A stretch of DNA of 64,000 nt, from assembly GCA_903813345.2 (NCBI GenBank), contig CAIIXF020000012.1:14750020-14814019 (forward strand). Direction: 5' to 3'. The notes under the pieces were generated by a model. The model saw only the letters and a list, made by a program, of their open reading frames with translations. It made no database searches and was not told the DNA's origin. The stretch comes from Owenia fusiformis (Eukaryota; Annelida; Polychaeta; Sabellida; Oweniidae). Made by a program: the position numbers and the translations under genes. Of the stretch, positions 8,001 through 63,294 are shown one piece after another. Each line of letters begins with the position of its first letter. The first letter of the stretch is position 1.

Positions 8001-11000
8001 GAAGAAAATGTGTAAAAGACCGACCATAGTCATTGGATTCCCAGTTTTAGTTTTACTTCTAATTTTGCATTTTTTCATCTTTATGTAAAAGACCGTCAGC
8101 CGACCACCGACCACATGTACCTAACTGTGGAGAGTGACTGGTCGGTGGTCGGCAGTCTCTTTTTTCACCAGTTTTTCCTCCAATGTCATACTGTATGGTA
8201 TATGATGTAGAATCTGATATCATAAATTCACAATATATTCTTTTTTCAGAATCTTTTCTATTAAAATGTTGATATTATCTATTTGAAGTATATAATTAAT
8301 TAAGCTCATCATAGTGTAGGTCTCTTGCCAGACTTTTAGACTGTGGCGCAGCACCACTCTCTATTTAGCACCCACCACAACCTATTTGCAAATCATGACT
8401 GTTTCTACTGTCTAAACTTGACTGAATACACAATAATAGCACGTAAAAAGGATAAAATATAGCATAAATATGATTTATCACGATTGAATGGTCATGCTGA
8501 AGATATTTGCACCACACCCTAAATATTTCCTGGTGAGAGCCAGTGTTAGGGTTCAAGGGTTTAGCCAAATTTGTTATATAAACACAACTTCTTTGTTGTA
8601 CAGTTGCTACTGTCAGGGAAAGTCAGAAGAGAATTTCAGTTTCTTCAAAACAGCTAAAGTGGTCGGGGAATTTCAGTTTCCTAAAAAGCAGCTAAAATGG
8701 TCAGGAAATTCTGGGAAAGTTCAGAGAAAACCCAAGGAATTTGAAGGGAATGAACATTTGAAAATTCGATCACAAACTGAAAAAAATTGCAAAGGGAAAA
8801 AGATTAAATAAAAGTTATCATCGTGTAATTATAGATAACAAACTACAAAGATCTACTTGAGAAAGAAAAGACTAGTCACGCAGAAACAAAGAAAAAACTC
8901 TCCACCAGTAAACTAACAGTGACTGAGAGGGACGCTACTATAGCAAAGCTACGGGAAGAGAATGCCAAACAATTAGAGGAACTAAGAACTAAGGTAAGAA
9001 ATATCTAAGCACAGATGCCAAAGAGGAAGGACCAAAACTGTAAAGAAACCTAGCAAGAAAATCTTTTTTGTGTTTCTATTTTTTTCCATTTTATTTTGAT
9101 GTCGACCAGCTGCTCAAAACTCTTTAATTTCGTAGCAATTACAACAAACTTGAATTTTATTTCATGTCGAAGCTAATGCCAGTAAAAATAACATACTTAT
9201 GTTGAATTAAAGTTAGAGGTATGTTGCTGAATTATAACTTCCTTTAACTGAATTCTCTGTTGAAGTGATTACTGTCATTGTCAAAAGTGAAAGTATATTT
9301 AACTTGACCTAATCATTATCATGCATAATTGCCTTTAAAAAGTGCTATTATCATACATGAGTACCTTTAAAAAGTCTTATTGTCGTACATGAGTGCCTTT
9401 AAAAAGTGCTATTATCATACATGGGTACCTTTTAAAGCTGTATTGTCATACATGATTGCCTTTAAAAAGTACTATTGGCATACATGGGTGCCTTTAAAAA
9501 GTGCTATTATTGTATATGGGTACCTTTAAAAGCTCTATTGTCATACATGAGTGCCTTTAAAAAGTACTATTGTCATACATGAGTGCCTTTAAAAAGTGCT
9601 ATTATCGTACATGGATACCTTTAAAAGTTCTATTGTCATACATATGTGCCTTTAAAAAGTGCTATTATCGTATATGGGTACCTTTATAAGCTCTATTGTC
9701 ATACATGAGTGCCTTTAAAAAGTGCTATTGTTGTATATCAGAGTACATTTAAAAAGTGCTTTTGTTGTACATGAGTGCCTTTAAAAAATGCTATTGTCGT
9801 ATATGGGTACATTTAAAAGTGCTATTGTCGTACATGAGTGCCTTTAAAGTGCTTTTATCATACATGAGAGTACATTTAAAAAGTGCTATTGTCGTACATG
9901 AGAACCTTTAAAAGCTCTTTTGTAATGCATGAGTGCCTTTAAAAAGTGCTATTGTCATATATGTGCCTTTAAAAAGTGCTATTATCGTATCGTATGAGTG
10001 CCTTTAAAAAGTACTATTTTCATACATGAGTGCCTTTAAAAAGTGCTATTATCATATTTGGGTACCTTTAAAAGCTCTATTGTCATATATGAGTGCCTTT
10101 AAAAAGTGCATATATAATTGTCGTATATCGGAGTACATTTAAAAAGTGCTATTGTTGTAAATTAGTTCCTTTAAAAAGTGCTATTGTCGTACATGAGAAC
10201 ATTGAAAAAGTACTATTGTCGTTTTCTTGAGCTGATGGATATACAGGTAGGCAGGCGCCTGGCAGCACAAAAGTTTGTCAATTTTTAGCAAGAAAATTGG
10301 CTTGAAATTTTGGCAGATTCAAAAGTAGACTACTGTGCTCAGATCTTGTTAGGTTTTTGGCTTACTACTGGGTAATTAATGAGGCAGCCATTTTGAATTC
10401 TTTCTAAGTGCCATATCTGTTGGTACACTGTTTGTTTTATTTAATTTAATATTTAATTTTCGATTAAACAATATTTAATTTAATAATAAGAAATGTTGAC
10501 TATTTGAAAGGTACTGTTCTCAGTCCTTAAAGCTAAGTTCACACCAACGGCACTTTGATGCCGCTTTAAAGAGTCATAAAACATCCTGTATAATGGTTAA
10601 TCAGGATTTGGTATATAAGAAGAATACAAGGGTGTGGAATACCTTTGCCGCCATGTCAGGATATATGTTCCAGTAAAACATCTAATCCAAACGTCACTGG
10701 GCCTGGTTAAAAGTGTTTGGATAAGTCAATGTTCATATCTAGGTTTTGTGGGTGGTGTTTGATTGTTGGTGTTTGGTAGTTGGCATTTGGTGGTCAGCAT
10801 CTGTTACAAATGACAGGTGGTGACATTTTGCATGTTAATGCCTTGTTATAAAGTGAATCAATGGGAAATGACAGATTTGGGACTGAGAAAAAGTGTTCCC
10901 ATTTTGAGGTTTTAAAAAAATATTAGGATATATAGGTTTCGTTTTCTAATTGAATTATTAAAAGTTTTGTTCATGTGTTTTTGTGTTAGCAAAGAGCAAT

Positions 11001-15063: not shown

Positions 15064-15129
15064 AAAGAAAACGCATCCTTGTGGTTATGTTTTAAAATGA
15101 AACATAGTGATGAAGGAACTGAAATTAAC

Positions 15130-15720
15130 AAGGAATAAAGTAAACAGGCATTAAATGAACACTCTAAATTATTTAAAAATGCAAGAAAATCAGATAGTTC
15201 ATTCAAATTTTAGAGAGAAATTGAGTGAAATCAGCGAGGAATAAAGGAAACAGTCATTTAATGAACACTCTAAATTGTATATAAATGCAAGAAAATCAGA
15301 AAGTTCATTCAAATTTTAGAGAGAAATTGAGTGAAATCAGCAAGGAATAAAGTAAACAGGCATTTAATGAACACTCTAAATTGTATATAAATGCAAGAAA
15401 ATCAGAATGTTCATTCAAATTTTAGAGAGAAATTGAGTGAAATCAGTGAGGAATAAAGTAAACAGGCATTTAATGAACACTAAATTATATATAAATGCAA
15501 GAAAATCAGGGAGTTCATTCAAACTTTAAAGAGAAATTGAGTGAAATCAGCAAGGAATAAAGTAAACAGGCATTTAATGAACACTCTAAATTGTATATAA
15601 ATGCAAGAAAATCAGGGAGTTCATTCAAACTTTAAAGAGAAATTGAGTGAAATCAGCAAGGAATAAAGTAACCACGTATGTAATTAACACTCTAATTTGT
15701 ATAGAAATGCCCAAAATCAG
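15130..15720 (+). repeat. 106-bp minisatellite repeating a poly(A) signal after the stop codon
   Basis: About five and a half copies of a ~106-bp unit begin 67 bp after the stop codon of the coiled-coil gene. Each unit carries AATAAA, at 15134, 15240, 15346, 15452, 15556 and 15662, followed by GTAAACAGGCATTTAATGAA and ending GAAATTGAGTGAAATCAG. The array therefore presents the 3' end machinery with up to six evenly spaced hexamers. One unit has lost 2 bp. Confidence 0.85.
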
Positions 15721-15834
15721 ATAAAATAAGCCTGACTACCTTTTACATTTTCTATAATTCAGTCCCTCATTTGTACAAAACAGTATTATTCGAAATCTGA
15801 GATGCAGCATAGTAGTGTTGTTGGACAGAGGGGG

Positions 15835-18704: not shown

Positions 18705-19424
18705 ACTAGATAACGGCAACTCCGCGGAGTAGCAAATCCCAACGAACAAAATATCAACTACCGAATTCCAATCAATTATACTCATTACTTTGGTTGAAAA
18801 TGAAAAAATTAGATTTTAGAATTGCGAATTCCTGCAAAGCAGCCATTTTGAATTTTCTGAGATACAAATCTGAAAAATAATACCATAATTGTGATCTACT
18901 CCAAAATTCCTTCAATTTGAGTATAATATAGCCATACTTTGAAGGGATCGAAAAATTATTGCGAAATCGTACATTAGACGGCCATTTTGAATTTTACGAG
19001 GCTCGAATCAGAAAAAAGATACAATATTTGCAATCTACTCTTAATTGCCTTTCATTTGAGTATAATAAAGCTATACTTCAGAAAGATCTAAAAATTAGCG
19101 AAAATTTCTGTTTTCCTGTCCCCCCATACATGGCCCCTGGGGGTCAGGATGAAAAACACGGAATATATGTGAAATAGATAAATGTTGTGAATACACTACC
19201 AAAATTTCAAACAATAATATTAATTACTTTGGTTTAGAATAAAAAATTTATGATTTTTGCGAAAAAGTCCCGTCATTTTTAAAGCGGCGGCCATATTGAA
19301 GAAAATCTGTCAACTAGTATTTGAGTTATCTTCCGGACAGACGGACGGACTGACTGACTGACGGACAGACGGACGGACGGAGGGCTTCACTATATCCCTA
19401 ACGAACTTCGTTCGTTGGGATAAT
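18705..19424 (+). mobile_element. Pearl/DINE-1-like (Helentron-associated) element, copy A
   Basis: The left end reads ACGGCAACTCCGCGGAGTAG then AAATCCCAACGAAC. The right end has an ACGG/ACTG microsatellite followed by CGAACTTCGTTCGTTGGGAT, which can fold into a hairpin and mirrors the left-end TCCCAACGAAC. Left sub-terminal repeat, core, microsatellite and 3' hairpin are the layout of Pearl/DINE-1 elements. It is nearly identical to copy B at 40.36 kb over about 600 bp. Confidence 0.75.
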
Positions 19425-20527: not shown

Positions 20528-21003
20528 CTAACCAGACAGTAATTTCATCGCCACAATCCGAGTTCTATGCTTAGTAATGGTCCCTTGCTGACATATTCTG
20601 TTAATGTGTTTTTCAAATGCTTTTACATGTTTCCTCAGATCTTGCATAATTTCTAGATCTTGTTTCACTTCCTCAATGTCCACTGTGTGTCCTCCTTCTA
20701 AACATTTCACCATTTCAATGATGACATCATCAGACAATGCATTATTATTGTTTTTAGTAAACTGTTTCAGAAATCTCAAATTGTGAAGCTTGATGTAGCT
20801 CTTCAAAATATGACTGATGAAGAGCACATATTTCTGTACCTCCACAACAGGAGAGTACTTACAGTTTGGCTCAGTGCCAAGAATGTCTGAGTATAGTTCT
20901 TCTGACGGCAGATAGGTGTCAGTAGTGTCTACTTGTGACATCTGTGAGAGTGACATCTGGGAAGAATCAAACATATCTTGACTCTGGGAGGAAGACTGGC
21001 TAT
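20528..21003 (-). CDS. Ankyrin gene, terminal exon
   Basis: The acceptor AATTGTTGCAG precedes ATAGCCAGTC. The exon begins SQSSSQSQDMFDSSQMSL, a Ser/Gln/Met-rich linker with several SQ dipeptides (possible ATM/ATR-type sites, in keeping with a DNA-damage role). A predicted helical region follows (KYVLFISHILKSYIKLHN). The protein ends IVAMKLLSG followed by TAG. Confidence 0.85.
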
Positions 21004-24000
21004 CTGCAACAATTGAGAAAAACATTTTGACAATCTCATCAGTGAAATAAGACATGCAGTGAACACTCTGAAAAGTATAATGGCTGTTATGTAATTTACC
21101 CAGCATGCTTAAAACCTTATCAGATATTGGCGCTAGTCTACACTTGGATCTGTAAGTGTTTTTTTCAGGAATTTTAATGACAAGATTAATGTGGTGATGA
21201 CAAGATTAATGTGGTGATGACAAGATTAATGTGGTGATGACAAGTTTAATGTGGTGTTGACCCACACACACTGACGCACAGCAATAAGCACAAGCAAAGG
21301 CAATATAGCGCTTTTTCAAAGTGCAAAAAAATGTTGACAAATCGCCAACCAAGTCGTTAGAATCTATAAAGATGAATAAAGTGTTTGTTTCTAAATTGAA
21401 ATACTTGATTTTGATTGGTCAGAAAGCAATGATTTGTATTATAAGATTATTAATGAATCAAAGAAGGTTCAAACCAAAAATGACTTACTTAGGATATATT
21501 TGCGTTTGATCGGTGTGACGATTACTGCTTTGTTTGTTGTTTGGGTGGTTGTCAGGACGAGCTGCATGTCCTCTGTCTCAGCCAAATCCAATGGTGTTTG
21601 CCCAGTCTTCGATTTTAGATTCAGCAGAACTGGACCTACGGAGTAGATGATTTAAATTTTAACTCATGATTGTATATTTTGTAAAAATATTGCATATTTT
21701 TACGAACAAAAGATGGCAGAGTTTATTTGGAAGATTTCTTTGGCAGTTATTTTCAATTTTAAGTGTCAGAGTCAGCTAAATGCCAGTCTACTTAATTCCT
21801 TTGATTTCACTCTTTTTCACTGAATTATGCCATTTAAAACCACAACCACTTTTTCGTCCACAATTACAACTTTTAACCTGCACATTGCATCAATAAAAAC
21901 TCATGTGTGCACATTTTCCAGTTATTAGTTGTGTTTTCCTTCTCTCAATAAACTGCCTTGAATTTATTTTATTCCTTGCTAATTCCACCCCTTTTTACTC
22001 TAGTTTACATTTGAAAACATGTTGAGTTTCTTTACAAGCATGCTGAATTAAAGGCAGAATCTGATCTATAGGGGATGACAAAATTACAAAAAACATGTAT
22101 AATTAATCTTCCAATCTATTCCTTACAATATCAAATACAATATCTCCCAAAAGATTCACAATATGTTATAAATTGGTAAAGTTATTATTGATCCAAAGTG
22201 CAAAAATGGGTGAAAATTTTTAATTGGTAACCATTCTTATAGAAAAATAATACATTATTGTAAAAATCTTTAGTTTTCCTGGAATAAAGTATGCACTTTT
22301 GTGATTTTTAGAAAATAGACATGACAAGGAGTGACATGAGCAAAAAATATTCTAAAATTGGAACAGTTTTTTGTTTAGCCTGCTCGCTATATCATTTTCT
22401 CTCTTTTATAATGTTACCATTTGCATGCTGCATAAGTAATGATACCACGTGCATTAGTGATGTTACCACTTTCTTACCTGCATGCTGCATTAGTAATGTT
22501 ACTTCTTTCTTACCTGCATTAGTAATGTTACCACTTTCTTACCTGCATGCTGCATTAGTGATGTTACCACTTTCTTACCTGCATGCTGCATTTGTGATGT
22601 TACCACTTTCTTACCTGCATGCTGCATTAGTGATGTTACCACTTTCTTACCTGCATGCTGCATTAGTGATGTTACCACTTTCTTACCTGCATGCTGCATT
22701 AGTAATGTTACCACTTTCTTACCTGCATGTTGCATTAGTAATGTTACCACTTTCTTACCTGCATGCTGCATTAGTAATGTTACCACTTTCTTACCTGCAT
22801 GTTGCATTAGTAATGTTACCACTTTCTTACCTGCATGCTGCATTAGTAATGTTACCACTTTTTTACCTGCATGCTGCATAAGTGATGTTACCACTTTCTT
22901 ACCTGCATGCTGCATTAGTAATGTTATCACTTTCTTACCTGCATGTTGCATTAGTAATGTTACCACTTTCTTACCTGCATGCTGCATTAGTAATGTTACC
23001 ACTTTCTTACCTGCATGCTGCATTAGTGATGTTACCACTTTCTTACCTGCATGCTGCATTAGTAATGTTACCACTTTCTTACCTGCATGCTGCATTAGTA
23101 ATGTTACCACTTTCTTACCTGCATGCTCTATTAGTAATGTTACCACTTTCTTACCTGCATGCTGTATTAGTAATGTTACCACTTTCTTACCTGCATGCTG
23201 CATTAGTAATGTTACCACTTTCTTACCTGCATGCTGCATTAGTGATGTTACCACTTTCTTACCTGCATGCTGCATTAGTGATGTTACCACTTTCTTACCT
23301 GCATGTTGCATTAGTAATGTTACCACTTTCTTACCTGCATGCTGTATTAGTAATGTTACCACTTTCTTACCTGCATGCTGCATTAGTAATGTTACAACTT
23401 TCTTACCTGCATGCTGCATTAGTGATGTTACCACTTTCTTACCTGTATGCTGCATTAGAAATGTTACCACTTTCTTACCTGCATGTTGCATTAGTAATGT
23501 TACCACTTTCTTACCTGCATGCTGCATTAGTGATGTTACCACTTTCTTACCTGCATGCTGCATAAGTGGTGTTACCACTTTCTTACCTGCATGCTGCATT
23601 AGCAATGTAACCACTTTCCTACCTGCATAAGTGATGTTACCACTTTCCTACCTGCATTAGCAATGTTACCACTTTCTTACCTGCATGCTGCATTAGTAAT
23701 GTTACCACTTTCTTACCTGCATGCTGCATTAGTGATGTTACCACTTTCTTACCTGCATGCTGCATTAGTAATGTTACCACTTTCTTACCTGCATGTTGCA
23801 TTAGTAATGTCACCACTTTCTTACCTGCATGCTGCATTAGTGATGTTACCACTTTCTTACCTGCATGCTGCATTAGTAATGTTACCACTTTCTTACCTGC
23901 ATGCTGCATTAGCAATGTTACCACTCCTATGTGGTTGTTCTCAACAGCATCGTGAAGTGGGGTTATACCAAATTCATTATCTACTGCTTGTAGATCCAAT

Positions 24001-25314
24001 TTCTGTACAGATCCTGAAAAACACATGGGCCTACAGTTAAACTTACTCAATCCAAGTTTTTGGAATAGCAGATTTCTAAATATAAAGGTTTCTTACTGTT
24101 AAGACAATATACGTAGATAATTAAATTGAGACTGAGAAAAAATGTTCACATTGAGAGGTGTTCTGATTAGAGAGGTGCTTGAATATAGAAATTTTACTGT
24201 ACTAGCAACAGGGCTCCCATTAGGCCTTTAGACTACAGCACAGTACAACACTGTTGCCCTATACTTATGTTAAACATACTTGTACCTACAGCTTAATTTG
24301 TCTATGTTTAAGAAGAAAAAAACAACCAGAATCCAAAGTGACAAAAGTGTGCCTTAATCCCCAATTATAAACATAAAGGAGATACACAAAGTTGCATCAA
24401 AACAGGAAGATAACATGGTCTATATGAATATTGACTTCTCTAAATAATGCAACTCAATTAGCAGATGAGATTCATTTTTGTAAGCATAAGGTTTTCTAGT
24501 CAATGTTTATTTTAAGCACACATGCCCGTAGCTAGGGAGGGGGGGGGGTTGAGGGGTTTTGGCAAACTCCCCTGGCTGAAAAAATCTTTCAAAATCATGC
24601 AGGTTTAACGATTCTGAGTATTATTCATGTGATTTAGGCCCAAATTAGTCAAAGTGAACCCCTTGGAATTTTTCGTATAAGTGCCCCCCCTGCCCCCCCC
24701 CCCCCCCCCCCCCGCAAAGGCTGGCTACTTGCTTGACATAGTTTATATTGTTCAATTTCCACAATAAATCAATAAAAATATGTCAGTTGTAATAATTATT
24801 ATCTCTGTCTCATCAGCAATTTCCTATAATTCCGTACTGCTATCACATGTTAATTAATTGCACTCTAATTATTGCACTTAATATGCGCAAATGGAATTTT
24901 CTGTATAGCATACAAGTGGGCGCTTATTACAGTATGTGTCTATGTACAGCAAGGAAATATGGCAGACTATGTGTGAAAATGAAATGATCCAAACTACAAA
25001 GAAATAGGGACTAATATTGTCATGACATCAAGGTTGTTTTAAGGAAAAAATAACTTTGCTAATACCCCAAAATGTGAAGAAAAACTCTAAATCCATCCTT
25101 GGCTAACCTTTGTTAAAATAACTGGTAATAGTTTTCTGTGGTTTGTACTTCAGCAACTCAGCAACGCATTCTGTGTTGCCATGGTTACAAGCCTCATGGA
25201 GAGGTGTCCAACCAGCATTGTCCCTGGCATTCACATCTATCCCCTGAATCTGTAGCAGCTCCACGACCCGTGAAACCTGGTTCTTGATACAGGCTACATG
25301 CAGGGGCGTCTCAC
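20528..25314 (-). CDS. Ankyrin-repeat protein, C-terminal four exons (SLF1/ANKRD32-like)
   Basis: Transcription is right to left. Exons are 25314-25108, 24013-23897, 21635-21489 and 21003-20528 (TAG at 20530-20528). All three introns are GT-AG and all are phase 1, so the four exons join into one frame of about 315 residues. Ankyrin repeats run in order: GETPLHVACIKN, AGWTPLHEACNHGN, FGITPLHDAVENN and a shorter GQTPLDLAETED. Across the second junction the product reads LLMQHA then GPVLLNLKSKTGQTP. From memory of the family this is the pattern of SLF1 (ANKRD32, the SMC5/6 localisation factor that works in DNA-damage repair), which also ends soon after its ankyrin repeats. TONSL-type ankyrins are the main alternative. 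After the repeats comes a Ser/Gln-rich linker and a helical C-terminus. Upstream exons, including any BRCT domains, were not found, so the gene is 5' partial here. Intron 2 contains the 36-bp splice-donor minisatellite. Confidence 0.75.
21179..21258. repeat. 20-bp tandem repeat, four copies
   Basis: CAAGATTAATGTGGTGATGA is repeated three times perfectly and a fourth time with a TTT variant. It lies in the last intron of the ankyrin gene. Confidence 0.85.
21489..21635 (-). CDS. Ankyrin gene, exon with ANK 4 and linker
   Basis: It lies between CTCCGTAG and CTAA|GTAAGT. It encodes PVLLNLKSKTGQTPLDLAET and then a Thr-rich linker ending KRKYIL. Phase 1 at both ends matches its neighbours. Confidence 0.85.
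22440..23932 (-). repeat. 36-bp minisatellite made of amplified 5' splice sites (about 40 units)
   Basis: Read on the minus strand, the unit comprises GTGGTAACATTACTAATGCA and GCATGCAGGTAAGAAA. It equals the final exon bases, the donor GCAG|GTAAGA and the first intron bases of the ANK 3 exon. In the exon frame each unit translates as VVTLLMQHAGKK. The first seven units after the ANK 3 helix keep that frame. A pair of 29-bp units at about 23605-23660 (7-bp deletion removing one CATGCAG) shifts the frame to a stop. Beyond them about 30 further units form an uninterrupted frame of 371 codons, then another 29-bp unit near 22515 and degenerate copies. Variation is mostly T/C at the Leu/Ser codon. 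The plus strand is also open (MLPLSYLHAALV), an inevitable shadow of a stop-free 36-bp unit. Confidence 0.95.
23897..24013 (-). CDS. Ankyrin gene, exon with ANK 3, ending in the first minisatellite unit
   Basis: The acceptor GTTTTTCAG leads into GATCTGTACAG. The exon encodes GSVQKLDLQAVDNEFGITP and then the ANK helices LHDAVENNHIGVVTLLMQHA. The donor GCAG|GTAAGA at 23897/23896 is a near-consensus 5' splice site. The last 28 exon bases plus the first 8 intron bases make up the 36-bp unit that is repeated about 40 times to the left. Using this first donor gives the correct phase for the next exon. Confidence 0.85.
24040..25100. other. Intron of the ankyrin gene with two relic elements
   Basis: Near 24125-24205 there is half of a Tigger/pogo-like MITE (GTTCACATTGAGAGGTGTTC, ending TTTTACTGTA). 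From about 24525 to 24735 lies a degenerate copy of the CCCGTAGCCAGGGG family with long C and G runs; its end reads GGCTGGCTAC. No coding sequence is seen. Confidence 0.5.
25108..25314 (-). CDS. Ankyrin gene, first visible exon (ANK 1 and 2)
   Basis: The acceptor TTTTCATAG precedes GTGAGACGCC, and the donor is AAAG|GTTAGC. The exon is 207 nt, starts with two bases of a Gly codon and ends with one base. It encodes GETPLHVACIKNQ and GWTPLHEACNHGN, two complete ankyrin repeats with TPLH motifs. Confidence 0.85.
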
Positions 25315-28077: not shown

Positions 28078-29612
28078 CAAAATGTCCCCACCAATGGGTG
28101 ATCCCGTCAAATGGTTATCCTGAAAGTGAGTAGACAAGACTTTACCGACACATTTTGAGGACGGGAAATCCAAATGGCCACCTTAAATTTTAACCAGAAT
28201 GCCATAAAATTAGTCAGTTCTAGATTTTCATACTATGAACCACCCCAGATGCCAATATGGCGATTGGTGGCCGAAAATGTATTGACTTTACTTCAATAAA
28301 GTTTATACTATAAAAAAAAAAAAAACACCCCAGAAAATTTGAAATTGATCCGTCAAACAGTTAACCAGAAAACAGGTAAACAAGACTTTACAGACAAGAT
28401 TTAATGATGGAAAATCCAAAATGGTTGCCTTGACATTTACCCAGAATGTCAAAAAACTAATCAGTTCTAGATTTTCATACTTAGAATCATCCATGAAAAT
28501 TTGAAATTGATCTACCAAACGGTTCACCTGAAAACGCGTAAACAAGACTTTACTGACAAGATTTTAGAACGGAAAATCAAAAATGGCTGCCTTGACATTT
28601 ACCGAAAATGCCAAAAAACTAATCAGATCTAAATTTTCATACTAAGAATCATCCCTGAAAATTTGAAATTGATCTACCAAACGGTTCACCTGAAAACGCG
28701 TAGACAAGACTTTACTGACAAAATTTTAGGACGGAAAATCCAAAATGGCTCCCTTGACATTTACCCAGAATGCCAAAAAACTAATCAGATCTAGATTTTC
28801 ATACTAAAAATCATCCCTAAAAATTTGAAATTGATCTACCAAACGGTTCACCTGGTAATGGTTAGACAAGACTTTACAGACAAGATTTTAGGACGGAAAA
28901 TCCAAAATGGCCGCCTTGACATTTACACAGAATGCCAAAAACTAATTAGATCTAGATTTTTGTACTAAGAATCATCCCTGAAAATTTAAAATTGATCTAC
29001 CAAATGGTTCAACTGAAAGCGTGTAGACAAGACTTTACAAACAAGATTTTAGGACGAAAAAATGCAAAATGGCCGACAATAAAAAAGTGATTATAAGTTT
29101 TTGCTGATTTCTTTTTACAAAATTATCACATATAACTGCCATTAACAATAACATAGGCTTTTACAACAAAGTACACCTGAAATTTTTTATAAAGCTACAA
29201 AATAGTTAAACTATGAAAACTCAACAACACCATTCAATATGATACAAAGTTTTATCGCACGCTAACTTTTCTTAAGACATTAAAATGGCTGCCATGACTG
29301 AGCTAACAGGTCCAAACCTATTCAGATGTAGAATGAAGTGAGCTGAACAAGATGTTAAAGTTTGAAAAGCAACTATGAAGCAGATTTTCTTAAAGTTTGC
29401 GGACAAGGATTTTAGCATTTGACTTCAAAATGGCCGACAGGAAGTAGGTATCGATTTAAAAAAATTTTCATCCACATCTGTATGCACTCATAAGTTATCC
29501 CTGAAAATTTGAAGGTGATATCTGTAGCGGTTTTGGAGAAAACTGCCGGACGTACGGACGGAAGGACGCGCCTAGGCCGACAATATGGCCCCACACTATG
29601 TGGTGGGGACAT
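28078..29612. mobile_element. Tandem-core repeat element E with GTCCCCACCA ends
   Basis: The left end ATGTCCCCACCAATGGG is mirrored by the right end ATGTGGTGGGGACAT. Between them lie about six units of ~165 bp containing AATGGCCGCCTTGACATTTA, GATCTACCAAACGGTTCACC and AGACAAGACTTTAC. Near the right end is a short ACGG-type microsatellite. The layout is that of Pearl/DINE-like elements but the termini differ from copies A-C, so it is a second subfamily. Confidence 0.7.
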
Positions 29613-32900: not shown

Positions 32901-34930
32901 CTATCTTCCTTTTAAATCAGATAAAACACACTGACAATCGATAATCTTTGCACAGTTAACGATCAAACATTGGGGTTCTTCATACTTCTGCTTTCTGATG
33001 AGCCACCTAATCTCTTCACTCACTCGATTTTTATACATGTTCCCGGGCCTGTGGGAACGATCATTCTGAACAGTGCGTTAGTGCGCTAGCGCGTGTTTTC
33101 ATTATAACCTTATTTAGACCATTCTAATAAGCGCCCATGTATGAAAGAAATCAGAAATCCCGAGGAATTTCATGTATGGCAATTTTTCTTGACAAGAATG
33201 CATTTTCTTCAACATATTTTTATAATAATATGACAAGTGCTGTTATTGGAGAGAATACGATAAAAATCGCTTAGACAATATTGACAGTGGTTGAAGACCC
33301 GTCTATGTCTAATTTATTTCCGGCACGCCCACTTTGTCATTATCGCCGATTACCTTCAATATTTCCACTAGAGACTGCTGGATATTGATCTAAAGTTATA
33401 CATTATTTCTAATTTGATGAGAGATCATCATTATTCGTGCAAAAGTCGTGTAAAAGTCGAGAAACATTAAAAAGAAACCAGACCTTGACATGCGCAGAAC
33501 ATCTGCGCAGTAGCTTTTGAAATTTCTGAATGCCGATAAAGAACAATTCCTTCATTCATTATGGATTATTATGATTCCTCGATGTTTCTTGAACTTTGTG
33601 AAGCGGGGTGGGCGCTTATTAGAGAGTGGGCGGTAATTACAGAGAATACGGTATTTTAAAATTCTGATTTTTGAAAACTTAATGTGCTCATTAGATGGTC
33701 AATAATACGTCTTCAACTTTAGTTTCAGAAATCTTTGAATTAAAACCACTGCACAAAATAAAAGACTGGAATATACAAACTGAATTGGCCAAACTCAATC
33801 TAGCTGAGTTGTCAACAATGAAGGTCCTCAAAGAAAGACGTCAACATTTGGAGAAAATGTGTGCCTTACACCCGGAAATTTCAAAGCAAAATACACCTGG
33901 TGGTTCTGTTATGGTTGGAAAACATTTCCCTTTTGTATATTGCAACATCCAAAAGGTGGGTAGTAGCACTTTCAAAAGAATTCTATATAGCCTTGAAAAA
34001 AACATATCCAATCCTTACAAAATGCGGGCAATAGAAGCACATCTTCATGGCGGTGTGAGAACATATATTGTAAAACAAAATAACATAGATGCAAAAATGT
34101 TGAACAAAATAGAGAATTATACTAAAGTTGTAATTGTACGAGATCCAATTAATCGGCTTATATCTGCATATTGGGACAAAATGTACAGCATCAATCCAAG
34201 TTTTTGGTGTAGAAGGAACATAGCAGGTATGATATTCAACCTCTATAGACGTGGTAAAGTGTCAACTGATGACACATCAACAGTTAACTCCTTTAATGAA
34301 AGTGGTGACACATCAACTAACAATGACACATCAGTACCCAACTGCATATGTGATATATCATTTAAAGAATTTATAGGATATATCATACAACAGGATAACA
34401 AACATATTAACCTTAACAAACACTGGCGCCCCCTTTACAAAAACTGTAACCCATGCAAGGACATGAAATATGATGTCATAGCACATTTAGAAACTTTCAA
34501 TGAAGACACAAATTTTTTCTTAAAGAAGATAAGTGGAACTAATCAACAACATGATGAACACGATAGTGATGTCATAACACGGGAGGTTGACATTCTTCTC
34601 AGGGGGTACTCAATGCCTCAAACGAAAAGCATGTGTGGATACAGTATGCAGGATTTAATAGTGAGGGCCTTCCAAGGCCTTGTTGCTAGGGGCTACATAA
34701 GTCAAGGGGCAATGCTACCAGCCCTGAATCCGGACCCAAAGTTCTACACCAGAGAAAGATTATATGCACTTTTCCTAAAACTTTATCAAACATCAAATGG
34801 ATATAGAATTAGCAAAGCAGAACTAAGGAGAAACATGTTAAAACAACTGCCTAGTGATATGATCGAGAAAATTTATGATATATACAAATATGATTTTGAA
34901 CTCTTTGGTTATGAATATAAAACACAATAA
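29920..34930 (+). CDS. Carbohydrate sulfotransferase, Sulfotransfer_2 / CHST8-14 family
   Basis: Two exons are proposed: 29920-29989 (or from ATG 29845 / 29866) and 33723-34930. Exon 1 gives a short cytoplasmic tail and a signal anchor, VALTVCLFIGTILII, as expected for a Golgi type II enzyme. Exon 2 encodes the luminal domain. The 5'-phosphosulfate-binding loop is NIQKVGSSTFKRIL and the 3'-phosphate-binding motif is VIVRDPINRLISAYWDK. Together these identify PAPS-dependent sulfotransferases that transfer sulfate to GalNAc or uronic acid of glycans such as chondroitin/dermatan. A Ser/Thr/Asn-rich insert (DTSTVNSFNESGDTSTNND) separates them from the C-terminal half, which ends DFELFGYEYKTQ, a typical family ending. 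Total length is about 425 residues, in the family range. Exon 1 ends in phase 1, and both acceptors before 33723 and 33729 are in phase. Substrate specificity cannot be read from the sequence. An AATAAA overlaps the stop codon. Confidence 0.85.
30696..30920 (+). repeat. Three ~72-bp tandem repeats
   Basis: The word TTCAATGTGTGGACCTTACA with the following AATATATTAATTATC and CAAAATCAGTATA occurs three times. The third copy runs directly into the left terminus of the 2.7 kb inverted-repeat element. Confidence 0.8.
30915..33653. mobile_element. 2.7 kb element with ACCGTATTCTCTGTAATTA inverted ends, in the sulfotransferase intron
   Basis: The left terminus TACCGTATTCTCTGTAATTA and the right terminus TAATTACAGAGAATACGGTA are exact inverted copies. 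Inner arms are also inverted: GGTTATAATGAAAACACGCG at 30969 against CGCGTGTTTTCATTATAACC near 33090. No transposase frame is visible; the interior holds a nested CCCGTAGCC-type element at 32185 and unique sequence. The right end lies only about 70 bp before the sulfotransferase exon 2 acceptor. A further single end of the family lies at 35790. Confidence 0.7.
32185..32346. mobile_element. Small hAT-like MITE of the GCCCGTAGCCAG family, copy 1
   Basis: The ends CAGGCCCGTAGCCAG and CTGGCTACGGGCAAG are inverted copies. The flanks share CCCCCACAAC (32175-32184 and 32347-32356), an 8-10 bp target duplication. Related copies lie at 24525-24735 and 39312-39468, with single ends near 38975 and 42745. 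Confidence 0.75.
33723..34930 (+). CDS. Sulfotransferase exon 2 (catalytic domain)
   Basis: The open frame extends upstream to an ATG at 33695. With exon 1 the likely acceptors are CAACTTTAG (exon from 33723) or TTTCAG (exon from 33729); both leave phase 1 and differ by two residues. A TTAG at 33691-33694, just before the ATG, would give an immediate stop when joined to exon 1, so it is disfavoured. The QKVGSST and RDP motifs lie about 60 residues apart, the normal spacing. Stop is TAA 34928-34930. Confidence 0.9.
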
Positions 34931-40356: not shown

Positions 40357-41264
40357 TAGATAACGGCAACTCCGCGGAGTAGCAAATCCCAACGAACAAA
40401 ATATCAATTACCGAATTCCAATCAATTATACTCATTACTTTGGTTAAAATTGAAAAAATGAGATTTTAGAATTGCGAATTCCTGCAAAGCAGCCATTTTG
40501 AATTTTCTGAGGTACAAATCTGAAAAATAGTACCATTATTGTGATCTACTCCAAAATTCCTTCAATTTGAGTATAATATAGTTATACTTTGAAGGGATCG
40601 AAAAATTATTGCGAAATCGTAGATTAGACGGCCATTTTGAATTTTACGAGGCTCGAATCAGAAAAAAGATACAATATTTGCAATCTACTCTTAATTGCCT
40701 TTCATTTGAGTATAATAAAGCTATACTTCAGAAAGATCTAAAAATTAGCGAAAATTTCTGTTTTCCTGTCCCCCCATACACGGCCCCTGGGGGTCGGGAT
40801 GAAAAACACAGAATATATGTGAAATAGATGAATGTTGTGAATATACTACCAAAATTTCATACAATAATATTAATTACTTTGGTTTAGAATGAAAAATTTA
40901 TGATTTTTGCAAAAAAGTCCCGTCATTTAAAGCGGCGGCCATATTAAATTCCAATCAATTATACTCATTACTTTGGTTAAAATTGAAAAAATGAGATTTT
41001 AGAATTGCGAATTCCTGCAAAGCAGCCATTTTGAATTTTCTGAGGTACAAATCTGAAAAATAATACCATTATTGTGATCTACTTTCGAAAAACTATTCAC
41101 CAATATACATCTTTCCACTAAATATGAAGAAAATCCGTCGACTTGTATTCAAGTTTTCTTCCGGACGGACAGATGGACGGACGGACGGATGGATGGACGG
41201 ACGGACTGACTGACGGACGGAGGGCTTCACTATATCCCTACCAAACTTCGTTCGTTGGGATAAT
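40357..41264 (+). mobile_element. Pearl/DINE-1-like element, copy B
   Basis: This is nearly identical to copy A from ACGGCAACTCCGCGGAGTAG to the GGGCTTCACTATATCCCTA end and the CTTCGTTCGTTGGGAT hairpin. It is about 190 bp longer because a block around CCAATCAATTATACTCATTA is duplicated at 40945 before the ACGG/ATGG microsatellite. Near-identity with copy A indicates recent activity or gene conversion. Confidence 0.75.
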
Positions 41265-59457: not shown

Positions 59458-60738
59458 ACTAGAAAAACAGCAACTCCACGGAGTAGCAAATCCCACCGAA
59501 CAAAACATGTTTTGATAAAAAAAATTGAGCCAAATTCATCCACTGGTATTTGAATTATCAAAGATTATGTCTTTATGAAACATGGTTGCCATTTTGAAAT
59601 TCAGCTGTCATCTTTTGATTTCTTCTTTAGCAGAGAATGTCCGTAAAATGGTATCTGGGATATCAAAGATTACTTTTTTAATGAAAAATGGCAGCCATTT
59701 TGAAATTCAGCTGTCGCCTTTAAAATTTATTCTGAAGCAGATCTCCTTTTCCCTAAACATCAGCATATAAAATTGGAACCAAATCCATCCACTAGTATTT
59801 GAGTTATCATTAATTACGTTTTTTACGAAAAATGGCGGCCATTTTGGAATTCAGTGACCATCTTGAAAATTTATTTTTGAGCAGAACTTCTTTGTCTCTA
59901 GGCATCAGCATATAGAATTTGAACCAAATCTGTCAACTGGTATTTGAGTTATCAAAGGTTACGTTCTTTTATGAAAAATAGCGGCCATGTCCCTATGTCC
60001 CTAGGCATCATCATGTAAAATTTGAACCAAATCCATTCAATGGTAATTGAGTTATCAAAGATAATGTTTTTTTAAAAATGGCCGCCATTTTGAAATTTAG
60101 CTGCCATCTTGAAAATCCTTTCTTGAGCAGAGCTCCTATGTCCCTAGGCACCAGCATCTAAAATTTAAACCAAATCCATTCAATGGTATTTGAGTTATCA
60201 AAGATAACGTTTTTTTAGGAAAAATGGCCGCCATTTTGAAATTTAGCTGCCATCTTGAAAATCCCTTCTCGAGCAGAGCTCCTATGTCCCTAGGCATCAG
60301 CATCTAAAATTTGAACCAAATCCATTCAATGGTCTTTGAGTTATCAAAGATAACGGCTTTTTACGAAAAATGGCCGCCATTTTGAAATTTGGTGGCCATT
60401 TTGAAAATGTCTTCTTGAGCAAGGCTCCTTTTTACCAAGGAAACAGCATATAAAATTTGAACCAAATCCATCATCTAGTATTTGAGTAATTAAAGATTAT
60501 ATTTTTTCCGAAAAATGGCCGCCATTTTGAATTAAGCGGCCATATTGAAAATTCCTTCTCGAGCAAAGGTCCTACACCCATAAGGCATAAGCCTATAAAA
60601 TTTGAATAAAATCCGTCAACCGGTATTTGAGTTATTGCCCGGACACATGAACGGACGGACGAACGGACGGACGAACGGACGGACGAACGGACGGACGGCT
60701 TTTCTATATCCCCCTCGAACTTCGTTCGGTGGGATAAT
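59458..60738 (+). mobile_element. Pearl/DINE-1-like element, copy C (long core)
   Basis: The left end is ACAGCAACTCCACGGAGTAG then AAATCCCACCGAAC. About eight ~145-bp units carry AATGGCCGCCATTTTGAAAT, ATGTCCCTAGGCATCAGCAT and TTTGAGTTATCAAAGATAAC. Then come six ACGAACGG/ACGG repeats and the hairpin end CCTCGAACTTCGTTCGGTGGG. This is the most complete copy: left end, tandem core, microsatellite, hairpin. Confidence 0.8.
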
Positions 60739-62599: not shown

Positions 62600-63294
62600 T
62601 TATGGTTACAAATTTCAAGAACAAGAAACAAGATTTTTCAAAAAACCTTCAAAATGGCCACCAGAAAACAAGATGGCCGCCCAAAAGTTAATCAGCTCTA
62701 GTACTTGATATCCTCTATCATTTGTGTAAATTTGAAGGAAATCCGATGAGCGGTTTTCCTGAAATGGCGATGACAAGATTTTTCGAAAAATCTTCAAAAT
62801 GGCTGCCAGAAAACAAGATGGCCGCCCAAAAGTTAATCAGCTCTAGTACTTGATATCTTCTATCATTTGTGTAAATTTGAAGGAAATCCGATGAGCAGAT
62901 TTTCTGAAATGGCGATGACAAGATTTTTCGAAAAATCTTCAAAATGGCTGCCAGAAAACAAGATGGCCACCCAAAAGTTAATCAGCTCTAGTACTTGATA
63001 TCCTCTATCATTTGTGTAAATTTGAAGGAAATCCAATGAGCGGTTTTCCTAAAATGGCGATGACAAGATTTTTCGAAAAACCTTCAAAATGGCCGCCAGA
63101 AAACAAGATGGCCACCCAAAAGTTAAACAGCTCTAGTACTTCATATGCTTTATCATCTCTGCAAATTTAGAGAAAATCTGATGAGCAGTTTTCCTTAAAC
63201 GGCGATGACAAAAAGCGGGACGATCATGATCACGACCACGATCACGACCACGATCACGAACAGTATGACGACTATATCCCACCGATGGTGTGAT
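62600..63294 (+). mobile_element. Tandem-core repeat element F (Pearl/DINE-like, left end unclear)
   Basis: Four ~146-bp units contain AAATGGCTGCCAGAAAACAA, GATGGCCGCCCAAAAGTTAA and TCAGCTCTAGTACTTGATAT. Then come an ACGATCACGACC microsatellite and the end CTATATCCCACCGATGGTGT, with GATAA. The right end resembles copies A-C (TATATCCC ... GGGATAA), but the left terminus is not the CGGCAACTCC type. Confidence 0.65.

Follow-up and report, generated by a model that had tools for sequence, protein, structure and literature searches.

When a 5' splice site has been multiplied in tandem behind a coding exon, does the spliceosome choose among the copies, or does it meet one donor and a long intron? 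The question is raised by an ankyrin-repeat gene of the annelid Owenia fusiformis (assembly GCA_903813345.2, contig CAIIXF020000012.1), which we read within a stretch of 64,000 nucleotides. This stretch is called the window, and its positions serve as coordinates unless a prefix such as C1 is given. A preliminary description of this DNA had seen in the gene a minisatellite made of splice donors and had offered three readings, namely a splice-slippage device giving a family of isoforms, a decoy cluster that titrates U1, or a neutral by-product protected by its frame.

Anatomy of the array and its host gene

The coordinates of the array and of the exons placed around it are collected in Table 1. 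With TRF, the array was found at 22450-23925 with a period of 36, 41.6 copies and 92% matches, which is within the minisatellite range for both unit length (36 bp) and copy number. Our unit map begins at 23924, ends near 22395 and distinguishes 44 units, of which 38 are of full length, with a degenerate distal end. The ANK 3 exon contributes its final 28 nt to unit 1, the rest being GTAAGAAA, and the unit had thus been correctly described as exon end, donor and intron head at this exon. The roughly forty tandem exon/intron boundaries that had been proposed correspond to 41 mapped donor-like sites, the native one included (38 perfect CAGGTAAGA, two GTAGGA and one GTAAAA), and the donors at 23896, 23860, 23824 and onward do follow one another at 36-bp spacing. 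Among the 38 full units, 17 distinct variants were counted, and the array takes up roughly two thirds of the intron, which is 2,261 bp long. With the array as query, a search of the 498-Mb genome that skips very common words gave one other match, on C8 with 70%, and no further copy of the array. The C8 match was considered as a dispersed relative of the unit and rejected, as it is an unrelated 30-bp array.

Table 1. Features of the host gene and its array (window positions; a slash marks an exon boundary)
Feature	Position	Strand	Basis or remark
ANK 1-2 exon of the SLF1-like gene, 207 nt, phase 1 to 1	25108..25314	-	Pfam Ank 6.6e-17 (ORF)
ANK 3 exon, phase 1 to 1, 117 nt, final 28 nt = first repeat copy	23897..24013	-	
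Native donor GCAG/GTAAGA, first intron base 23896	23891..23896	-	join to 21635 gives HA-G-PVLLN
36-bp donor minisatellite, ~42 copies, 41 donor-like sites, distal copies degenerate	22395..23924	-	TRF and unit map
Array part open in frame from the exon: six in-phase donors, frame shift, stop 23639	23640..23896	-	
ANK 4 exon (GPVLLNLKSKTGQTPLDL...), phase 1 to 1, 147 nt	21489..21635	-	sequence reading
Probable last exon, stop TAG	20528..21003	-	acceptor GTTGCAG/ATAGCC phase 1, open to stop

Coding phase is kept along part of the array only. That every extra unit offers a donor in the same phase holds insofar as the period is divisible by three and the unit is open in frame; it fails for donor 23651 and for 31 donors that are one phase off. 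In phase with the native donor are six further donors, from 23860 to 23680, and not seven as first counted, because the seventh extra unit is 7 bp short, which puts its donor 23651 out of phase and lets read-through end at the stop at 23639. Seven bp are missing from three units (donors 23651, 23622 and 22513), at a place where the unit has an internal GCAG repeat. The 31 shifted donors (23622 to 22542) lie past the second short unit, and the final two, 22513 and 22477, are again in phase. Only six longer in-frame isoforms could therefore be formed via one later donor.

All four exons placed in the host gene have phase 1 at their inner boundaries. As read, the ANK 1-2 exon is bounded by the acceptor ...TTCATAG/GTGAGA and the donor AACAAAG/GTTAGC, and the ANK 4 exon by the acceptor CTCCGTAG/GTCCAG and the donor CCTAA/GTAAGT. 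The open reading frame of the ANK 3 exon, which extends into the array, matches the Pfam families Ank_2 (2.3e-6) and Ank (1.2e-4). For the ANK 4 exon we found a weak ankyrin match (8.8 bits) and partial cover by the SLF1 match described below; scanned alone against Pfam, it gave no match. The probable last exon had nothing above the Pfam cut-off and no match to solved structures. A 21-G run lies at 24693-24713 on the reverse strand, in the intron preceding the ANK 3 exon.

Splicing from 23896 to 21635 would yield LLMQHA-G-PVLLNLKSKTGQTPLDL as the native join, and this predicted join is consistent with SLF1. The four-repeat protein read from these exons aligns with SLF1 (PDB 8pef) in a single stretch, query residues 1-129 of 143 on chain residues 9-121, with an E-value of 1.2e-34, so that the ankyrin domain of the host gene is collinear with that of SLF1, which was also matched in further searches. 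We take the segment GPVLL...PLD to resemble SLF1 as well. SLF1 ranked 22nd among the 54 matches of the four-repeat protein, below designed and classical ankyrin proteins, which tend to outscore others when repeat proteins are compared. Because these proteins score higher, the host gene is probably SLF1 (ANKRD32)-like, an identity short of proven. The N-terminus of SLF1 carries BRCT domains. The runner-up among genome matches to ANK 1-3 was 43% identical, with scores computed for 150 of the 552 candidates.

Elsewhere in the window, a 411-aa open frame at 33695-34927 on the forward strand matches Sulfotransfer_2 (7.4e-39). TRF gave 53 rows for the window, with large arrays at 9315-10220 (~32 bp), 15120-15721 (~106 bp), 28329-29073 (~162 bp), 59647-60635 (~145 bp) and 62628-63211 (~145 bp). 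Two similar 139-bp tandem pairs are each followed by (CGGA)n, one at 18842-19097 with 19334-19381, the other at 40492-40747 with 41162-41221; these two loci are perhaps copies of one mobile element.

Arrays at other splice junctions

The genome was scanned for at least three tandem CAGGTAAG words (303 places, 100 listed) and with two spacing-based scans, one listed in full and the other for 100 of 122 places. Grouped by eye, the places form at least 26 loci including the array of the SLF1-like gene, and the other 25 were fetched and read. Left out of the 26 was a dispersed repeat family whose unit bears CAGGTAAG, with at least five loci (C1:38277825, C3:7460328, C4:3454492, C5:12849927 and C7:13594135). 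An exon end was called where the first donor closes a protein-like open frame that begins behind an AG, and all such calls were made by eye and not blind. We relied on reading because a codon score, for which about 570 codons had served as training set, separated poorly and placed 9 of the 26 arrays, but also 6 of the 39 sampled words introduced below, above the 5% null.

Among the matches listed, the first donor is an apparent coding exon end at 20 of the 26 array loci, and in the pieces fetched the number of perfect CAGGTAAG donors behind an apparent exon end ranges from 4 to 42. At L004 and L013, the apparent exon stops about 50-90 nt upstream of the array (L004 with a tRNA-synthetase match, 4.5e-4); no exon was seen on reading at L008, L011, L014 and L015. 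When all 20 exon-end loci were scanned against Pfam, ten gave matches with E<0.01. Above the family cut-off were EHMT Cys-rich (1.6e-16), B56 of PP2A (4.7e-11), PF15874 (6.1e-8), Peptidase_M24 (2.7e-7), RecQ zinc-binding (3.5e-7), F-box-like and, for the SLF1-like gene, Ank_2. Three of the ten (L005, L010 and L021) stayed under it, the families being kringle, dynein heavy chain and a weak MBG_3. On reading, several exon-end loci presumably also resemble XPNPEP3, DERA, CKAP5, SCCPDH and others.

A second donor word, CAGGTGAG, gave apparent exon ends at three of six loci (among 100 of 315 matches listed), one of them with a Rieske match (3.8e-8). A possible exon lies about 190 nt upstream at L046, and none was seen at L049 and L050. 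The seventh listed locus was L008 itself and was left out, and L048 was read together with L065. By a simple homology rule, 19 of 23 exon-end arrays have a repeat that covers at least 9 nt of the exon. In the remaining four, it enters the exon by 2-3 nt only, and these arrays therefore begin at the junction rather than across it. The array of the SLF1-like gene seems to be one case of a recurrent, genome-wide set of repeats.

Arrays also occur on the acceptor side (L033, L035, L036, L039, L043, L055, L060 and L061). For TTTTGCAG, all 16 loci were fetched, the array at L040 possibly extending beyond its piece, and the last copy opens an apparent coding exon in five of them; four of these five were scanned against Pfam and gave one weak myosin-head match (0.0098). 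For TTTTTCAG, 14 of the 18 non-dispersed loci among the matches listed were fetched, and one of the other four is the array of L009. Here the last copy opens an apparent coding exon in 3 of the 14, with Pfam matches to Nup93 (1.6e-15), TMEM144 (1.5e-11) and RING (2.7e-9), a count that leaves out the doubtful L056 and L064. Acceptor-side arrays fit the rule that tandem duplication of a junction is tolerated as long as the exon-adjacent copy remains intact. Copies of a dispersed tandem family, with the unit TTTTTCAGAAATCTACCGTAAAAACTCC and variants of it, were seen as well, e.g., at C1:48347959 and C3:20454433 (among 100 of 250 matches listed).

How often would such arrays meet an exon end by chance? 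The genome holds 13,495 CAGGTAAG words versus 11,848 of the reversed word. As a control, 39 CAGGTAAG words were taken as spaced picks from the first 3.3 Mb of C1 (among 100 of 13,495 listed), and 11, or up to 13, of them read as exon ends. Compared with 20 of 26 arrays, this gives a Fisher P of 1.5e-4 to 8.8e-4. Pfam scans of 12 of the 39 sampled peptides gave four matches with E<0.01, one of them under its cut-offs; by family match, the comparison is 10 of 26 arrays versus 4 of 39 words (P 0.012, where anything unscanned was treated as a miss in both groups). With exon ends called by eye, arrays appear about 7-8 times commoner per site at true CAGGTAAG donors than at other CAGGTAAG words. The rate at non-donor CAGGTAAG words, 6 per ~9,000-9,700, lies near the 10 loci per 11,848 of the control word GAATGGAC, whose matches were listed in full. 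For another control word, AAGGTCAG, at least 12 loci stood among 100 of 132 matches listed, which reach into C7 (a locus count only), and the raw count of donor-word arrays is therefore at most modestly raised. It is the placement, rather than the number, of these arrays that stands out. The 7-8-fold excess at true donors apparently goes beyond what neutrality alone explains. We may tentatively speculate that minisatellites in this genome are born preferentially at working splice donors, a proposal that we regard as possible and still rather doubtful.

Known repeats across exon boundaries

The preliminary description knew of no described case of this kind. There are precedents: lancelet mirages (PMC3087553, PMC3902484), human exon-boundary repeats (PMC2812944) and human IFI6 (PMC4526556). 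In lancelets, the genes Adh3 and the globins BflGb6 and BflGb9 bear tandem repeats over exon/intron boundaries, on the 5' or 3' side, with units of 10-160 bp and splice signals in many units, and the authors suggest normal splicing (PMC3087553). Another paper added troponin C, compared PGBD5 and states that mirages yield no aberrant mRNAs (PMC3902484). Like these mirages, the units of our array include exon end and splice site, and both 5' and 3' boundaries are affected in the Owenia fusiformis genome, as judged by eye and in part backed by Pfam. Different from lancelets are the annelid host, the ~42 copies of 36 bp and the recurrence at some 20 donor loci. The domain Eryth_link_C, regarded as specific to annelids, lies above its cut-off at three clustered places of this genome, and 14 control genomes gave no match to it. 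Within the literature searched, which was covered in part, we found no such repeats called mirages other than those of lancelets.

The minisatellite of human 6-16/IFI6 (G1P3) offers multiple donor sites, two downstream units of which are used, so that three mRNAs arise, according to PMC4526556; PMC2572611 likewise cites Turri et al. 1995 for it. As in IFI6, the units of our array carry a donor adjoining a coding exon, and the 36-bp period keeps the frame, with six further in-phase donors. Unlike there, where downstream units are used in mRNA, the sister arrays in Owenia keep the frame no more than expected by chance. The IFI6 unit is 12 bp long and keeps the frame.

Human internal tandem repeats in segmental duplications have ~30-bp units at exon-intron boundaries and are reported to be able to bring about alternative splicing via novel introns in recent paralogues, with about four copies on average (PMC2812944). 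Our array likewise is a minisatellite at an exon-intron boundary; in contrast, it has ~42 copies, and no close paralogue of the SLF1-like gene was found among the scored 150 of 552 candidates. Introns have reportedly also been created by tandem duplication of AGGT-containing exon segments, with Rogers in 1989 and Gao and Lynch in 2009 named as sources and a potato RdRp gene given as a case. In common with our array, such a duplication carries splice signals and can keep the native protein intact. There, however, a new intron forms within an exon, whereas in the SLF1-like gene an existing intron would grow from its own boundary.

Splicing of the array and its meaning

From these observations, the array quite probably is a mirage-type minisatellite that is silent in splicing, with native mRNA made from the first donor and the copies drifting as intron. 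A segment reaching from the 3' end of the coding exon across its 5' splice site into the start of the intron would have been duplicated in tandem; unequal exchange or slippage would presumably have expanded the duplication later and made its copies partly uniform. With the exon and its adjoining donor left as they were, native mRNA could still be produced from 23896, which we assume to be the donor used in cells. The downstream copies, donors included, would be intron that is spliced out and free to drift. Of the readings first offered, the neutral one is hence favoured, yet protection by frame is not the reason for neutrality, since the sister arrays keep the frame no more than chance would have it: of 23 exon-end arrays, 11 have a period divisible by three (P 0.18 versus one third; at one of the 11, L006, the unit is uncertain, 59 or 60).

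The same arrays bear on the possibility that donors 2-7 are sometimes chosen, which would add 12 to 72 residues (KKVVTLLMQHAG units) ahead of ANK 4. For such a ladder of isoforms speak the six further donors themselves, which are identical, in phase and open, the two downstream units serving as donors in IFI6, and the alternative splicing that human exon-intron boundary repeats are reported to be able to give (PMC2812944). Variation inside our array points in the same direction. Its donor varies less than the other unit positions do (ratio 0.26, a marginal value from one locus that is inside the 0-2.0 spread of the controls), one of the 17 distinct variants falls within the 9 nt of the donor where 4.25 would be expected (P 0.05, again marginal and from one locus), and 9 of the 17 variants are synonymous (P 0.04, marginal, with most units out of exon phase). 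The exon-end arrays as a set argue against such a ladder. Twelve of the 23 have a period that is not divisible by three, and a period divisible by three together with an open first extra unit occurs in 9 of the 23; a multiple-of-three period as a sign of selection for isoforms was accordingly rejected. Over 20 exon-end arrays, ours included, variation in the donor word is about equal to that in the remaining unit positions (median ratio 0.98, pooled 6.7% versus 6.0%). For 14 control-word arrays selected by the same procedure, the values were 0.56 and 4.2% versus 6.4%, and donor conservation showed no difference between the 20 and the 14 (P 0.27). Lancelet mirages are reported without splicing interference or aberrant mRNAs, and the inserted residues would sit within the ankyrin stack. 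The splice-slippage family of isoforms thus draws at most marginal support, from one array, and finds no frame or donor constraint in the others; we consider it unlikely.

Another proposal is that dozens of U1 sites behind the exon act on splicing, which they would slow, fix or enhance, or keep polyadenylation from happening prematurely. Such a decoy or platform would agree with the 41 donor-like sites at and behind the exon end and with exon-end arrays being apparently 7-8 times commoner per site than non-donor-word arrays. The donor words are, however, without extra constraint over the 20 exon-end arrays, and arrays on the acceptor side, picked without the donor word, also occur. The U1 cluster of the preliminary description is left with the marginal signal of the one array, the extra donors of its sisters being not specially conserved, and appears very improbable. 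Least credible of all is an assembly artefact in which the repeat was collapsed or expanded. Arrays are difficult to assemble, but the full units differ in so many distinct variants, the same arrangement is found at many unlinked loci, and one published Owenia fusiformis assembly used long reads (PMC9977687), which counts against an artefact if it is the same assembly.

What had been supposed to be a one-off splice device thus turns out as a case of a recurrent and apparently silent kind of repeat, and the lancelet mirage pattern is extended to an annelid. If minisatellites are truly born preferentially at working donors, this would suggest that a mutational process coupled to transcription or splicing acts at exon ends. 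Proximal-donor choice has otherwise been studied using artificial duplicated splice sites. For Owenia fusiformis, RNA-seq over development has been produced (PMC9977687). In Owenia fusiformis, about twenty natural genes pose this same test, in which the spliceosome would choose the first among many near-identical donors.
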